Source: Nitrosotalea sp. (GTDB taxonomy: Archaea > Thermoproteota > Nitrososphaeria > Nitrososphaerales > Nitrosopumilaceae). From it: 24,755 nucleotides of DNA. A model generated the notes under the pieces. That model was given only the letters and a program-made list of their open reading frames with translations. It was not told the DNA's origin and ran no database searches. The first letter of the stretch is position 1, and the number at the start of each line of letters is the position of its first letter. The stretch spans positions 1 through 24,755 of the forward strand of contig JAKEIJ010000020.1 in NCBI GenBank assembly GCA_022545805.1, given 5' to 3'. The position numbers were made by a program, and so were the translations under genes. Of this stretch, positions 6,942 to 18,631 are shown one piece after another.

Positions 6942-8522
6942 GTGAAATCAAATACGTATAGTACATTGGTAATGAACGCAGTACTTTTGATTTTATTCCT
7001 ATCACTTGCTAGCAATCATGTTGTAAATGCATCTTCTGTTGGAACTATCAGTTTAGCAAAATCTGGACTAGTTGTATCTGATCCTTTAAACAATGAAATT
7101 AAAACACAGCAAGAATTGAAAGCAAATCCAGGATATTGGTACTACAACGGAGACGCACCAGATCTAAAAGCAAATTATACATTTTTCAAAGACTTACAAG
7201 GACTACATGTGGGAGCTCAGGCACCTGCAAATGGAACATATGCCGGATTCTATGCCATGTCACAAAATACCAATGCAACTTTATTTCATGCAATAGTATC
7301 AACACCAGTCAGAACAATTCCAAGCAACAATAACTTTTTCTTTAATGGATTATACGTCCAGACTGCACAATCAGTAGTAAATTATGTGTCATGTGTATCA
7401 GACACTAGCAAATCTGGAACCATCTGGACAATCGGTCACACTTACGGAAGTCCCAATGATGCTCTAATGTTCGACACTTTGTGGACAGATACTAGTCAAA
7501 ATCAGCCATTAACTCGAGACTGTACAATAGTTACAGATGGTCAGAATAACCTCAAGGCGTATCTTGATGGTGTCTTGGTATATTCAAGTAGTACAATCCT
7601 ACTTGGCATGCCTTCTCCATTCAATGCATATCTTGAACCACAAAATTCCTACACAGGCCAGATGATCAATGGAACGTATACAGACTTTTACGTAACAGAA
7701 GGGGACAAGATTCTGATAACTAACATTTCATCAAATGCTGCAGTAGCAAATGTAACCGACTCGAATGGAAATGTACTTGCCAGTTCGCCAGTATCAAATG
7801 GCAAGGCAATTTTCGACATAGGAAAATATCACTTCCCATTAGTTGCAAATATTGCAATTTATGATTCTAACAAAATACTAGTTTCATCCACAACTAGTCC
7901 TGCAAACATGTTTGGAGGAGATGTTTATACAGTTGATGCTCTAAACCCCAGCCCACCAAAGTCTCCCACAGGACTTGCTGCTACTGCAATCTCGTCATCA
8001 CAAATCAATTTGTCGTGGACTGCACCATCAGACAATGGTGGTTCTACAATAACAGAATACAACGTAGAAAGATCCACAGACAATGGAACTTCGTGGTCAA
8101 GTGTATCCAATACAACATCTACTAGTTATTCTGATACTGGACTGGTACCAAGTACAACTTACACTTATCGCGCATCTGCAATCAATTCAGTTGGAACTAG
8201 TTCTCCGTCAAACACTGCTTCTGCAACTACTTATCCAAGTGTTATAACCAATTCCAAATTAACCGTAAGCACACAGAACCTCAATGGGGCATCCATCTCA
8301 GGTCAGTACATAGAACTCTGGCAAAACGGGATCCAGATAGATGGCGGATTCTCTCCTGTTACATTTACCTTAATGGATGGGCCACAGTATACAGTAATAG
8401 CTGACAATTACCTCACAAACATGTTTGATCATTGGTTTGATACTGGTTCAAAAAATAACTCAAGAAACATATCAATCATGACGGATACAAGCATAACAGC
8501 AGTCTATAGAACCATTCCTTAG
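6942..8522 (+). CDS. Secreted lectin-like protein with one fibronectin type III domain
   Basis: A 526-residue exported protein. It opens with a Sec-type signal peptide (Lys2, hydrophobic stretch AVLLILFLSLA, probable cleavage after VNA near residue 30). Residues about 31-335 look like a beta-rich, concanavalin/LamG-like domain (YTDFYVTEGDKI, YLDGVLVY, many N-x-S/T sites). A fibronectin-III domain follows (about 337-431: SSSQINLSWTAPSDNGGS, STTYTYRASAINSVG). The C-terminal domain (about 435-526) has the FDHWFDTGS and ITAVY signature common in thaumarchaeal surface proteins. The start is a GTG at 6942; the in-frame ATG at 6972 would lose the Lys before the hydrophobic core. Role is probably surface adhesion or polymer binding; the ligand is unknown. 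Its FN3 closely resembles those of the gene at 16904-18631. Confidence 0.85.
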   Translation: MKSNTYSTLVMNAVLLILFLSLASNHVVNASSVGTISLAKSGLVVSDPLNNEIKTQQELKANPGYWYYNGDAPDLKANYTFFKDLQGLHVGAQAPANGTYAGFYAMSQNTNATLFHAIVSTPVRTIPSNNNFFFNGLYVQTAQSVVNYVSCVSDTSKSGTIWTIGHTYGSPNDALMFDTLWTDTSQNQPLTRDCTIVTDGQNNLKAYLDGVLVYSSSTILLGMPSPFNAYLEPQNSYTGQMINGTYTDFYVTEGDKILITNISSNAAVANVTDSNGNVLASSPVSNGKAIFDIGKYHFPLVANIAIYDSNKILVSSTTSPANMFGGDVYTVDALNPSPPKSPTGLAATAISSSQINLSWTAPSDNGGSTITEYNVERSTDNGTSWSSVSNTTSTSYSDTGLVPSTTYTYRASAINSVGTSSPSNTASATTYPSVITNSKLTVSTQNLNGASISGQYIELWQNGIQIDGGFSPVTFTLMDGPQYTVIADNYLTNMFDHWFDTGSKNNSRNISIMTDTSITAVYRTIP

Positions 8523-10540: not shown

Positions 10541-10623
10541 AAATTGTGTCTATATTACTCATCATTTGGTGTAATTTTCTTAAGTGCTACAATAGAAAAA
10601 CAAGTAAATACAACAATTGTGCA

Positions 10624-10842
10624 ATGGCAAAACGATCAACAAGAGCTGTTAAAAAAAGATCAGCTCCTAAGAGAAGATCTGCTGCAAAGCGATCTGCTCC
10701 AAAGAGACGATCTGCTCCAAAGCGTAGTGCTCCTAAGAGAAGATCTGCTGCAAAGCGATCTGCTCCAAAGAGAAGAGCTGCTCCAAGAAAGAGATCAGCT
10801 TCACGAAAAGCAAAGAGAACAGCTTCAAAAAGACGAAGATAA
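10624..10842 (+). CDS. Lys/Arg-rich histone H1-like repeat protein
   Basis: A 72-residue protein with 35 Lys or Arg residues and no acidic residue. It is built from copies of units like KRSAPKRRSA, so it is predicted to be unfolded and to bind DNA or RNA, as histone H1 tails and bacterial Hc1/HctB-like proteins do. The ATG at 10624 is the first start compatible with the repeat region; a longer reading from 10546 adds 26 residues of unrelated hydrophobic sequence. Two other frames stay open through the region because of the repeats, but their Leu/Gln-rich products are less credible. It ends just before a perfect hairpin shared with the convergent 94-residue gene. Role in chromatin or ribosome assembly is inferred from composition only. 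Confidence 0.72.
   Translation: MAKRSTRAVKKRSAPKRRSAAKRSAPKRRSAPKRSAPKRRSAAKRSAPKRRAAPRKRSASRKAKRTASKRRR
10663..10773 (+). repeat. Perfect 45-nt direct repeat inside the basic-protein gene
   Basis: Bases 10663-10707 and 10729-10773 are identical over 45 nt, with copy starts 66 nt (22 codons) apart. This equals two 11-codon protein units and marks a recent in-frame duplication. Shorter variants (TCTGCTCCAAAG) occur between and after the copies. Confidence 0.9.
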
Positions 10843-11209: not shown

Positions 11210-12844
11210 CTAGTATAGAAAGCTCATCAGTTTTATTTGCTGCTCAGTTGTCAGGACATTTTTAGAAGACAAGATCTCAAGCAGTTGTGTTATCAATGCG
11301 CGCTCTTGTTCTGAAAATCCTGTTGGACCCTTGTCACCTGGCGGACCTGGCGGACCTCTAGGACCTTGTTCACCAGGAATTCCTTGTTGTCCTTGAGGAC
11401 CTTGCGGACCCTTGTCACCCAAAGGACCTTGTGGGCCAGTTAGACCCTTATCGCCTTGTGGACCTTGTACGCCTTGTGGACCTTTATCACCATGTGGACC
11501 TAGTGGACCCTTGTCACCCAAAGGACCAGGAGGACCTTGAATTCCCGGAGGACCCTTGTCACCGGGAGTACCCTGCGGACCGGTGGTACCCTTGTCTCCT
11601 TGTGGACCTTGAATTCCTTGTGGACCAGGTGGACCTGTTGGACCTGGCGTACCTCGTGGACCTTGTTCACCGCTTGCACCTGGTAATCCTCTTGGACCCT
11701 TATCGCCTTGTGGACCAGGAATTCCAGTTAGACCTTTTTCTCCAGCAGGACCTTGTGGACCCTGCGGACCTTTTTCTCCAAGTGGACCTTGCGGACCAGT
11801 AAGACCCTTGTCGCCTTGTGGACCCTGCGGACCTGGCAATCCCTTGTCACCTGGCGAACCTGGTGGACCTTTTGGACCTTGTTCACCAGGTGGTCCAATG
11901 ATTCCCTTGTCTCCTTGTGGACCAGGAGGACCTGTTGGTCCTTTTTCTCCAAGTGGACCAATTTCTCCGGTTAGTCCCTTGTCGCCTTTATCACCTTTAT
12001 CTCCTTTATCTCCATGTTCACCTTTTTCACCTTCTTCACCACGAGGACCCTTGTCACCTTGTGGACCTTTATCACCAGTAATTCCTTTATCACCAATTGG
12101 ACCCTTGTCACCCCTGTCACCTTTGTCGCCGCTTGGACCATGTGGACCCTTGTCACCCATTGGACCTGGAGGACCTAATGGTCCTTTGTCACCAGTAATT
12201 CCTTTATCACCCATTGGGCCTTTATCGCCCCTATCGCCTTTGTCACCTGGCGGACCTGGTGGACCTTTGTCACCTTTTTCTCCAAGTGGACCTGGTGATC
12301 CCTTGTCACCTTGTACGCCCATAGGACCTGATGGACCTTGTACACCAGGCGGACCCATCTGTCCCGGTGGACCCATAGGACCAGCCGGACCCATCGGACC
12401 GGATGGACCTCGCACTCCCCTTTCACCCTGGAAAGGTTCCATCACAATTTTTTGTTTAGGAATTTCAGAATCGAATTTTGTATGATGTGTTACTGGTTCT
12501 GATTCTGGAGTTGATTCGACATAGTCAGAGTCAATTTTTGGAACATTAATTTGAAAACTAGAATGAATTGAGGAGAACTGGTCAATTACGACAACCCAGA
12601 CAGTTCCCTTTTGAAATACTGTTGATGGAAGCGGATTTTTTGCAGAACCAATGACTTGGGTAAATTTTTTGTCTTTTACTCTAAGATGAAAATTGTCCTT
12701 CCAAAGAGAGTGAAAACTTCTCTTCTTTACATCATCAAGTGAGGGAGGTGTATCACAGAGTGCAATTTGCACCTCAAAGACACCTGACAAGATCTTAAAG
12801 GGCGACTCGCCAGAGATCTCTATAGTGTTATCTTTTGATGACAT
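11210..12844 (-). CDS. Collagen-like protein with 123 Gly-X-Y triplets
   Basis: A 544-residue protein in three parts. Residues 1-139: a beta-rich N-terminal domain ([49 protein letters not shown]) and an acidic Ser/Thr/Pro linker. Residues 140-508: exactly 123 uninterrupted Gly-X-Y triplets (27 GDK and 5 GEK, many GPP, GPQ, GPL), the sequence rule of a collagen triple helix; runs such as KGDKGDKG supply Lys-Asp pairs known to stabilise helices lacking hydroxyproline. Residues 510-544: an amphipathic helix ([12 protein letters not shown]) that could trimerise. No signal peptide or membrane segment is visible, so it is either intracellular or exported by an unrecognised route. The ATG at 12844 is the only good start. 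The antisense strand also holds Gly/Pro-rich open frames, a side effect of GGN/CCN codons. Structure is inferred; function unknown. Confidence 0.93.
11321..12427 (-). repeat. Gly-X-Y triplet array (collagen domain)
   Basis: A 9-nt-periodic coding repeat of 1107 bp encoding triplets 1 to 123 without a break. Higher-order copies are visible, for example [12 protein letters not shown] occurs twice in the C-terminal half and [10 protein letters not shown] twice in the N-terminal half, pointing to growth by internal duplication. Confidence 0.95.
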
Positions 12845-12865
12845 ATTCTACGTGTAATCCCTTAG

Positions 12866-12873
12866 TATTTTTG
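12866..12873 (-). promoter_or_regulatory. TATA-like box for the collagen-like gene
   Basis: Minus-strand CAAAAATA is centred about 26 nt upstream of the ATG at 12844. AT content is high all around, so the exact box is uncertain. Confidence 0.3.
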
Positions 12874-12966
12874 TATTTTCAATATGATATAAAGCCCATT
12901 TGTGAATTTTTAGACACTTGGAAATCTGTTTTCTACCTTCCAGGCTGCCTGATTTTCAAACTAATC

Positions 12967-12974: not shown

Positions 12975-13000
12975 TACGGCTAATCCACATTTTGTTAACC

Positions 13001-14134
13001 GTGAAAAAGATACTCAAGGACAAAAAGGAAGAACCTCTTTCGGAGATTAGAAAGGTAGAGCCAGAGCCAAGTACCAAGATAACAGATTCCAACTATAACA
13101 GAAACAAACACTACAAGAAAGGGGTCTCCCTCATGGCAGATGAGCGATTGGAGGATGCGGCAAGAGCGTTCGAAGATGCGCTACGAATCGATCCAAGACA
13201 TATGGATTCATTGCTCAAGTTAGGATATGCACGTTTTCACATGAATGATTTTGCAGGCGCGATGGAATCATACAACAAGGTCCATGAAATCGATGTTACA
13301 AATGCAGAAGCATGGAACTTGAAAGGTCTGATTTACTATCAACAGAAGAATTATGATAAAGCATTAGACAGCGTAGAAAAGGCAATTGATTCCAATTCTA
13401 TAGACGGAATGTCGTGGTACAACAAGGCATGTTACCACTCTTTATTGAATCACATACCAGAATCTATCGAGGCATTAAAACGCTCAATTGAGATTGATGT
13501 CAAGAATGCAAAAAAAGCAGTAAGAGACAAAGACTTTGAAAACATCAGAACTGATGAAGGATACAAAAGAATTGTTGAAGTTGTTGTACTTGAATCAGTG
13601 AGACAAGGATATCGTAAAGTAGGACAGATTGTCTGGACTACAATGGTAGGCAAGCTGGAAGTTGAAGATGCTGCAAGAAAACTAGTTGAGAAGGGGTTAT
13701 TGATAAAAACAGAAAAAAATCTCGGACTGCAAAAAGTAGAAGAGTTTGAGATTGTTCCAGAGCTTGCAGAAAAAATCGGGGTGGAAAAGAAAGGCTTTTT
13801 TGGTGCTGCTAAAAAATCTCAGCCAATTGTAATACAAAATCTAAAAGAGATAAACGAGGCTGTACAAGCAACCAAGACAGCAATTGAAAAAGGAGACGTC
13901 AAGGAAGTAATTGCATGTCTTGACGTATTCATTGAACCTGCAAAGAAAGGCGGACAAATGATTGAATACTTTTTTGAAGAGCACCGTGACATTAGGTTGT
14001 ACAAGGTAAGACTCACCGACAAGGGAGTAGAATATCTCCAGGCAAACAAACAGAAGATAATGGACTTGTTTAGCAACATAGAAATGATGATAACAAAGAA
14101 ACTTAGAAACGAAGCTGCCAGTCAGAATTCTTAG
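13001..14134 (+). CDS. Tetratricopeptide repeat (TPR) protein
   Basis: A 377-residue soluble protein. After a charged N terminus (KKILKDKKEE) there are about four TPR units (residues 30-175): KGVSLMADERLEDAARAFED, LGYARFHMNDFAGAMESYNK, KGLIYYQQKNYDKALDSVEK and NKACYHSLLNHIPESIEALK. TPRs form a helical scaffold for binding other proteins. Residues about 195-250 (GQIVWTTMVGKLEVEDAARK, LVEKGLLI) resemble a winged-helix fold, and the remainder is a long charged helical region. GTG at 13001 is preferred (MKKILKD); the in-frame TTG at 12992 would add three residues. It diverges from the collagen-like gene and ends 3 nt from the convergent sulfurtransferase gene. Partner unknown. Confidence 0.88.
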   Translation: MKKILKDKKEEPLSEIRKVEPEPSTKITDSNYNRNKHYKKGVSLMADERLEDAARAFEDALRIDPRHMDSLLKLGYARFHMNDFAGAMESYNKVHEIDVTNAEAWNLKGLIYYQQKNYDKALDSVEKAIDSNSIDGMSWYNKACYHSLLNHIPESIEALKRSIEIDVKNAKKAVRDKDFENIRTDEGYKRIVEVVVLESVRQGYRKVGQIVWTTMVGKLEVEDAARKLVEKGLLIKTEKNLGLQKVEEFEIVPELAEKIGVEKKGFFGAAKKSQPIVIQNLKEINEAVQATKTAIEKGDVKEVIACLDVFIEPAKKGGQMIEYFFEEHRDIRLYKVRLTDKGVEYLQANKQKIMDLFSNIEMMITKKLRNEAASQNS

Positions 14135-16903: not shown

Positions 16904-18631
16904 CTACGGCAATGCCTTTATCTCAATTGCAACATCATCCCAGAAATCTGCGCTATTTGTAGTCCACTTGCAGTTGATAACACTTTGAGTTGGTACAATT
17001 TTGGAGCTTGATGCACCGGTTATGGCACTTGGCATGTTGACGTCCCATTGTTGTGTACATGTTGATGAGCCAATTGTGGAGCCGCCATAAATGGATGGCA
17101 GATCTATGACCCAGTCGTTTGCGAATTTAGTTGTAAGCGATATGGTAGGACTGTTGGAATTTACATTGTGTCGTACTGCTTTGGTGGGTATTGGGTTTGT
17201 CTGATTTACTCCAGAAAATGAATATGCTCCAACGACTGTTGATGTTTTGCCATTCATTGTAACTACAATAGCACCATTACCTGTGGGATTGTCGAGATAC
17301 CAAAATTCGGCATCATTATTATAAAATGATCCAACTTTTTTCGTAAGAGGTATGCCTCCAAATGTAATTGAATTTACATGACTTCGGTCTGCACTGACAC
17401 CTACAACAAGTAACCTATTGTTGTCTGTTCCAACATCAAAGTCTGAAAGCATAATTCGGTTCGAGGATAATGTTGTTGAGCCGGATGTTGATTGTATGTT
17501 GTTTAAGACAATTCCACTTGTCGAAGTACTAGTAGTTTCAGAGGCAGTATTTGATGGAGAACCGGTTCCGATGCCATTGATTGTAGAGACGCGGTATGTG
17601 TAAGTGGTACTCTGAGAGAGTCCAGCATCATTGTAAGTGGCATTATTATTACCGGTGTTAGATATGACAGAATACCAGGTATTTCCATTATCAGGTGATC
17701 GTTCAACATCATATCCTGTTATTTCCGAACCGCCATCGTCTGTAGGTGTAGTCCAAGACAAGTTGATTTGTGATGATGAAATAGTAGTTGCGACAAGTTC
17801 TGTTGGTGATGATGTTATTGTTACATCACTAGGTGTTGACGCAGTTGCAGTGTTTGATGGTGAACTAGTTCCCATGCCATTGATTGCAGAGACGCGGTAT
17901 GTGTAAGTGGTACTTGGATTTAATTCCGTATCATAATAGGTGGTAGTAGTACTGCCTGTGTTTTCATCCATCGTTGACCATGTAGAACCTGCATCTGTTG
18001 AACTTTCAATTTGATATCCGGTTATTTCAGAACCACCATTGTTTGCAGGTGTAGTCCAAGATAGGTGGATTTTAGATGAAGATGTAACCATTGCCTGCAA
18101 GTTTTGTGGTGCAGATGAAGAGTCAATCCATTGTACATTGTATGTTACCGGATTACTAAGAGTTGAAAAGGTTGCAAAAAATACAGATTGTGAATAGTAT
18201 CCAGGATGTGGATTTGTTAGTGTTTCATTGAGGGTCACGTCTTGGTTGGGAAGTATGGTTGTGGTTTTACTATCCGGCATACAATGTCCATCTGCAAAAG
18301 CAAAAACATCATCATGATACCAAGTGGTTCCAAGACTTGTGTTGTTCTGAGAGCTCATATTGGAAGTGTGTATTACAAAAGTTACATCATAACTGCTTCC
18401 TGTGTTCACATTAAAGACCACACCAGGATTTGCTATTGGATTAAACGTATTACTGCCATTATTTATCGCAAAGGATACGATCGGACCGTCATACCTATTG
18501 AGACACGTGGAAGGGGCATCACCCATTGCAAACACTTGATTCATAGACAAACCAAGGCCTACAAAAAGAATTGAAGCAAAGAATACAGTGAGACGGTACT
18601 TACTACGATAATTTTTTGGAGTTTCTGTCAC
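16904..18631 (-). CDS. Secreted protein with two fibronectin type III domains
   Basis: A 575-residue exported protein. Signal peptide residues 1-35 (basic NYRSKYR, hydrophobic FFASILFVGLGL, probable cleavage after VFA). Residues about 41-165 form a beta-rich domain with a Cys pair (DAPSTCLNRYDG, DGHCMPDS) and asparagine-rich loops. Two fibronectin-III domains follow (about 168-265 and 275-365), each with INLSWTTP or IHLSWTTP and a TYTYRVS strand. The C-terminal domain (about 371-575: GVSADRSHVNSITFGG, VVGAYSFSGVNQ, WDDVAIEIKALP) looks like a lectin-type jelly-roll seen in surface proteins. Start is a GTG at 18629-18631. No anchor helix at the C terminus, so it is released or held by other surface proteins. 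It shares FN3 type with 6942-8522; binding target unknown. Confidence 0.85.
   Translation of the reverse strand: MTETPKNYRSKYRLTVFFASILFVGLGLSMNQVFAMGDAPSTCLNRYDGPIVSFAINNGSNTFNPIANPGVVFNVNTGSSYDVTFVIHTSNMSSQNNTSLGTTWYHDDVFAFADGHCMPDSKTTTILPNQDVTLNETLTNPHPGYYSQSVFFATFSTLSNPVTYNVQWIDSSSAPQNLQAMVTSSSKIHLSWTTPANNGGSEITGYQIESSTDAGSTWSTMDENTGSTTTTYYDTELNPSTTYTYRVSAINGMGTSSPSNTATASTPSDVTITSSPTELVATTISSSQINLSWTTPTDDGGSEITGYDVERSPDNGNTWYSVISNTGNNNATYNDAGLSQSTTYTYRVSTINGIGTGSPSNTASETTSTSTSGIVLNNIQSTSGSTTLSSNRIMLSDFDVGTDNNRLLVVGVSADRSHVNSITFGGIPLTKKVGSFYNNDAEFWYLDNPTGNGAIVVTMNGKTSTVVGAYSFSGVNQTNPIPTKAVRHNVNSNSPTISLTTKFANDWVIDLPSIYGGSTIGSSTCTQQWDVNMPSAITGASSSKIVPTQSVINCKWTTNSADFWDDVAIEIKALP
17571..17913 (-). 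repeat. Near-identical DNA segments marking duplicated FN3 domains
   Basis: Bases 17571-17610 and 17874-17913 match at 39 of 40 positions, 303 nt (101 codons) apart, and encode the same part of both FN3 domains (TYTYRVS...INGxGTG/S). They indicate recent domain duplication or gene conversion. Confidence 0.85.

Follow-up and report, generated by a model that had tools for sequence, protein, structure and literature searches.

What would a long collagen do in an archaeon if it carries no visible signal for export? This question is raised by a gene of Nitrosotalea sp. in contig JAKEIJ010000020.1, of which a stretch of 24,755 nucleotides was analyzed (hereafter, the window). Collagens are normally regarded as surface or extracellular proteins; therefore, a collagen that lacks a visible export signal throughout a whole family is unexpected. 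The features of the locus are collected in Table 1.

Table 1. Features of the collagen-like gene and its surroundings in the window.
Feature	Position	Strand	Basis
Collagen-like protein gene (544 aa; ATG start, TAG stop)	11210..12844	-	ORF read 12844 to 11210
N-terminal head, beta-rich, probably Ig-like, residues 6-105, no Pfam entry	12530..12829	-	profile searches, AlphaFold2
Linker, variable, residues 106-139	12428..12529	-	sequence comparison
Gly-X-Y run (rod), residues 140-511, 124 triplets, uninterrupted	11312..12427	-	triplet count, Pfam
Foot, C-terminal 33-aa helical hairpin, residues 512-544, most constrained part	11213..11311	-	alignment, dN/dS, AlphaFold2
In-frame TAG two codons upstream of ATG	12848..12850	-	sequence
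Promoter-position element AAATACARAAATACTT, one mismatch in window	12863..12878	-	conservation in members
TPR protein gene, divergent	12992..14134	+	Pfam, conserved neighbour

The 544-residue frame contains no internal stop codon, and no frameshift was seen within the window. The initial annotation had counted 123 unbroken Gly-X-Y triplets dominated by GDK, GPP, GPQ, and GPL. That count holds, and it becomes 124 when the final GFS is included; GDK occurs 27 times, GPQ 16, GPP 13, and GPL 7. In Pfam, the protein matched Collagen (PF01391) with 204.8 bits, above the curated cut-off of 27.2, and nothing else. The source MAG is 1.14 Mb in size and 70.7% complete, and every collagen match in it falls in this gene.

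In the AlphaFold2 model of the head (pLDDT 93.8, pTM 0.85), six strands are combined with two short helices, which, together with the PF01391 match, agrees with the globular N-terminal head on a collagen-like rod described initially. We read the head (about 100 residues) as a beta-sandwich, probably Ig-like judging from the chains that the model resembles at moderate Z. Eighteen head sequences (alignment A1) gave no significant match in Pfam (the lowest E was 0.06); sequence searches found no solved relative of the head, and fold searches found no clear one. The initial outline is sound for the head and the rod, but it left out the C-terminal foot as a part of its own, although this is the most conserved part. 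The foot was modeled as a two-helix hairpin (pLDDT 83.2, pTM 0.54, single chain). Head and foot are two hitherto undescribed end domains.

To describe the architecture across the family, 98 distinct member sequences were gathered. Of these, 12 extend beyond a contig edge or lack the head motif searched for and were set aside; the other 86 were counted as complete members. Counting runs of at least four triplets, all 86 have a single unbroken Gly-X-Y run of 84–143 triplets. The lengths are clustered, with 119–126 triplets in 53 members and 101–104 in 19. A tail of the foot kind (33–35 residues) forms the C-terminus in 85 of the 86, the exception being L094. Among 20 further stretches from deeper branches, head, rod, and foot are kept in most. 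One of these has 185 triplets (L205), one has a diverged end (L210), and two contain unknown bases (L207 and L208). The genus of L201 has small genomes (about 0.8 Mb); here the rod is down to only 10 + 22 triplets, and the end has diverged. In L202, from another genus, the frame of the collagen gene is broken. These two sequences may represent a rod that is decaying while the head is kept; the rod therefore seems dispensable in some lineages.

Selection was estimated in 12 close relatives, comprising eight congeners, two others named Nitrosotalea, L067, and L087. In 8133 comparisons of Gly codons (66 pairs), there was no amino acid change but 3238 synonymous differences. The Gly-X-Y run is therefore not due to chance, and we infer that its frame is translated because selection keeps the Gly codons. 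A long uninterrupted run kept by selection, a feature of prokaryotic collagen-like proteins, is found here. The median dN/dS was lowest for the foot (0.01, 50 pairs), followed by the rod (0.06, 66 pairs) and the head (0.086, 56 of 66 pairs computable); these values are rough because dS is near 1. The extreme conservation of the foot suggests that it may have the more demanding partner or a role in assembly.

GDK and GEK make up 17.9% and 7.5%, respectively, of the 9943 triplets of the complete members, among which no Cys was found, and Pro occupies 31% of the X and Y places in the family. Pairs of Lys or Arg in a Y place followed by Asp or Glu in the next X place stabilize bacterial collagens, and Lys-Gly-Asp/Glu salt bridges had been described as abundant in this protein. 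This claim did not survive the count. The window protein has 10 such pairs (seven of them KGD or KGE), whereas triplet shuffles average 13.2, and 12.9% of the shuffles were equally low. In seven of eight members tested the count was below the shuffled mean, and in one it was just above. In the eight members tested, enrichment of these pairs is therefore rejected. A domain of the prolyl-hydroxylase type (PF13640) was not found above the cut-off in any of seven genomes, one of which (G017) had a sub-threshold match. If a triple helix forms, the 372 residues of the run would give a rod of about 105 nm at 0.286 nm per residue, in line with the roughly 100 nm estimated initially.

The initial annotation regarded such a protein as not standard in ammonia-oxidizing archaea. 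The genome searches overturned this view. A whole-protein search found it in 136 of 151 sampled Nitrosopumilaceae genomes and in all 22 genera, a count that may include other collagens. A profile of the head alone found matches in 187 of 400 class genomes, which fall into 22 of 82 genera; those 22 are all the sampled Nitrosopumilaceae genera, and all the matches listed lie within this family. A broader head profile matched 49 of 50 Nitrosopumilaceae genomes and none of 249 others from the phylum. At a completeness of at least 90% and a contamination of at most 5%, the head was found in 122 of 220 class genomes. At least nine Nitrosopumilaceae genomes of this quality, among the 20 non-matches listed, have no head match; all nine are in at least 30 contigs, and in one of them (G108) the rest of the collagen gene lies at a contig end. 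Among the genomes listed, the head is present in 24 of 24 single-contig Nitrosopumilaceae genomes. Two head matches were found in each of two genomes (G265 and G090), and one in every other matched genome. The foot profile matched 122 of 250 class genomes, and its sole match outside Nitrosopumilaceae (G193) is weak and partial (E 0.006). The separate searches with the flanking domains, as proposed initially, thus found both of them family-wide and nearly confined to one family. PF01391 was found in 152 of 233 class genomes, both inside and outside Nitrosopumilaceae; therefore, it is the architecture, and not the Gly-X-Y repeat itself, that is specific to the family. Head and foot are specific to Nitrosopumilaceae in the genomes searched.

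Among the best 80 of 127 head relatives in GTDB contigs, the closest named one is from a Candidatus Nitrosotalea MAG (L061, 96%), and others are from Nitrosotalea devanaterra (L063, 81%) and Nitrosotalea bavarica (L068, 74%). These named relatives place the window in Nitrosotalea. Together with Nitrosopumilus, Nitrosarchaeum, Nitrosotenuis, and Cenarchaeum, we take Nitrosotalea to belong to Nitrosopumilaceae as defined in GTDB. One record titled Nitrososphaeraceae (L113) has the gene in the same neighborhood, and its title is taken as a misnomer. No description of the protein turned up in literature searches; databases name members of the family “collagen-like protein” or “hypothetical protein”, or give a generic collagen name (JGI).

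The neighborhood of the gene is also conserved. In the same best 80 of 127 loci, many of which end at contig edges, the gene for the TPR protein was found in 77, that for a rhodanese in 76, that for a sulfite/nitrite reductase in 74, and that for a Drg GTPase in 56. Conserved neighbors are a mark of vertical inheritance. The family-wide presence and the conserved neighborhood rule out a strain-specific or recently acquired gene; it belongs to the single-copy core of Nitrosopumilaceae and, most simply, came from their common ancestor. The TPR protein occurs more widely, in 107 of 120 class genomes, 21 of which belong to three other families of the order that have no head. A dedicated partnership between the two proteins is thereby ruled out, and the collagen gene was probably added beside an older TPR gene. 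Two other features of the window were noted. A small and very basic protein with KRSAPKRR-like repeats is encoded at 10546–10842 (+), with a 33-base tandem repeat at 10658–10786; it resembles a tail of the histone H1 type and has tblastn matches in 19 of these 80 loci. Two fibronectin type III proteins, at 6942–8522 (+) and 16904–18631 (-), interrupt the otherwise conserved gene order and have matches in only one of the 80 loci (L061).

The lack of an export signal noted at first was borne out by hydropathy analysis, on which alone the following statements are based. Neither a signal peptide nor a membrane helix is visible in the window protein; its highest 19-residue value is 1.03 and lies within the head. 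An in-frame TAG two codons before the ATG excludes an overlooked signal peptide upstream. None of the 86 complete members has an N-terminal hydrophobic core, whether the closest or the most distant start codon tried is used, and their maximal 19-residue hydropathy is at most 1.6. The open frame before the first head motif is at most 20 residues long in 31 of them and at most 35 in 80.

An upstream element, AAATACARAAATACTT, is located about 34 bases before the start in 84 of the 86 members (46 exact, 28 with one mismatch, and 10 with two). Mononucleotide shuffles reach two or fewer mismatches in about 0.1% of cases. When eight whole genomes were scanned, the six exact matches all lay just upstream of the collagen gene, and six matches with one mismatch occur elsewhere, as compared with two for a reversed control pattern. 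No copy within one mismatch was found at the collagen gene of G019. As a control, the upstream regions of 11 other genes were compared (two more had too few sequences). One of these, the sulfite reductase gene, is preceded at the same distance by a block of equal conservation, which in related loci is TCAAAAATTTATATCC at about -34, and at the TPR gene the AAATACARAAATACTT element was recovered, read backwards. The idea of a gene-specific regulatory element is weakened by the sulfite-reductase block; since one of the 11 control genes has an equal block at that distance, we read AAATACARAAATACTT as a core promoter. Its position fits a transcript that starts near the start codon, leaving little space for a longer N-terminus. 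Most likely, the protein remains in the cytosol or at the inner side of the membrane; a missing signal peptide is no proof of such a location.

Taking these results together, we favor, with a probability of roughly one half, a homotrimeric rod in the cytosol, about 105 nm long, that is encoded by a core gene of Nitrosopumilaceae and spaces or tethers two partners. Three chains would meet via their C-terminal helical hairpins, so that the foot nucleates the trimer, and the chains would then zip into an unhydroxylated collagen triple helix. The three heads, probably Ig-like, would lie at the far end from the foot and bind one partner, and the rod would act as a stiff spacer or tether between this partner and that of the foot. 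The spacer role is suggested because the rod is uninterrupted and its length is clustered, though not fixed. Several observations speak against this reading, namely the variation in length (84–143 triplets in complete members, 185 in L205), the reduced rod of L201 and the broken frame of L202, the lack of enrichment of pairs of opposite charge, and the occurrence of the TPR neighbor in families without the head. Cells of Nitrosopumilus maritimus are 320–410 nm across according to cryo-EM (PMC11082331) and would thus have room for a rod of about 105 nm. The words filament, fiber, and fibre are absent from the available part of that text, which speaks neither for nor against a rod.

The protein might instead be a surface or secreted fiber that is exported without a Sec signal peptide and whose heads or foot bind the S-layer or a substrate. 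We consider this unlikely, although it is in line with the usual place of prokaryotic collagen-like proteins at the surface and with the existence of two other Nitrosopumilaceae collagens with signal-peptide-like starts (L162, hydropathy 2.72; L163, 2.35). These two have Gly-X-Y triplets like the window protein but differ from it in their starts and in having 4–7% charged residues in X and Y places, and a head or foot like those of the window protein was not seen in their available parts. In four collagen stretches of the other kind, two of them without a visible N-terminus, charged residues take 0–7% of the X and Y places versus 29–41% in the head-rod-foot family, and Thr takes 21–94% of the Y places versus 6–18%. 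In one report, “LPXTG-anchored collagen-like adhesins” are increased at low salinity in Nitrosotenuis chungbukensis MY2, with one of them in the proteome (PMC13037477), and this strain also carries the head-rod-foot gene (L099). However, MY2 has two further Gly-X-Y gene pieces at contig ends (L161 and L162), one with a signal-peptide-like start, so that the reported adhesins may be these other collagens. The other piece runs by eye into apparent fn3 and FG-GAP-type repeats, and the two are possibly one gene split by its repeats. Export is further opposed by the missing N-terminal hydrophobic core in all 86 complete members and in the window protein, by the absence of LPXTG from the 33-residue foot of the latter and from the C-terminal member tails inspected, and by SclA and SclB scores below the cut-offs. 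Triplets also occur in two other contexts, whose domains were named by eye: a DnaK/Hsp70-like protein of a Nitrosopumilus ends in 12 C-terminal triplets of the GAEGQA type (L165, 1478–3389, -), and in Nitrosopumilus salaria 17 triplets, mostly GAT, lie beside RTX-like GGxGxD repeats (L164, 3–765, +).

Two other explanations change the nature of the rod or its origin. It seems improbable that the Gly-X-Y part is a charged disordered spacer instead of a triple helix in the cell. The frequent GDK and GEK triplets and the unenriched pairs would suit such a spacer, and highly expressed disordered proteins of other archaea, one cluster of which is reported to be annotated as collagen-like (PMC5069720), offer a precedent. 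However, a disordered chain does not need Gly at every third place, yet none of the 8133 comparisons shows a change and no run is broken in the 86 members; the Pro content of the X and Y places points in the same direction. An adopted viral or tailocin tail-fiber gene is very improbable. PHROG tail-fiber families match the Gly-X-Y part, as they would any such repeat, but the head has no PHROG match and no confirmed relative in IMG/VR. The head matched phage records at E 4 or worse and had no fold match in BFVD at E 0.001, a kind of search that may miss a relative, and the neighboring genes look like housekeeping genes.

Returning to the cytosolic rod, we tentatively extend it to a broader proposal, which has somewhat less than even odds: an intracellular collagen that has been part of the core of an archaeal family since its origin, and that sets the distance between two components as a triple-helical rod in the cytosol. 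Nitrosopumilaceae rank among the most abundant archaea on Earth, in the ocean and in soil. A collagen present in all 22 sampled genera, lacking a visible export signal and bearing two undescribed end domains, would make collagen more than a surface material, namely a possible inner component of the archaeal cell.

Compared with known collagen-like systems, the protein resembles several of them in its repeat and differs in its ends. It scored 215.9 bits against Scl2/SclB (cut-off 325) and 192.5 bits against Scl1/SclA (cut-off 400) in NCBIfam, both sub-threshold; the Scl adhesins are anchored by LPXTG, whereas the window protein has neither such a tail nor a visible signal peptide. The Lcl adhesin (NCBIfam) shares the Gly-X-Y stretch (282.7 bits, cut-off 500), but the window protein has its own terminal domains and no visible signal peptide. 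Phage tail fibers of the PHROG tail families match the Gly-X-Y part, but no viral relative of the head was found at a useful E-value in IMG/VR, PHROG, or phage records, and the gene lies in a housekeeping neighborhood. Collagen-like phage tail fibers assemble in the cytosol without a signal peptide. With the prokaryotic collagens of PF01391, the window protein has in common a long and perfect Gly-X-Y run, and it is set apart from them by the lack of a visible signal peptide, by a head and a foot of its own, and by its status as a core gene of a single family.
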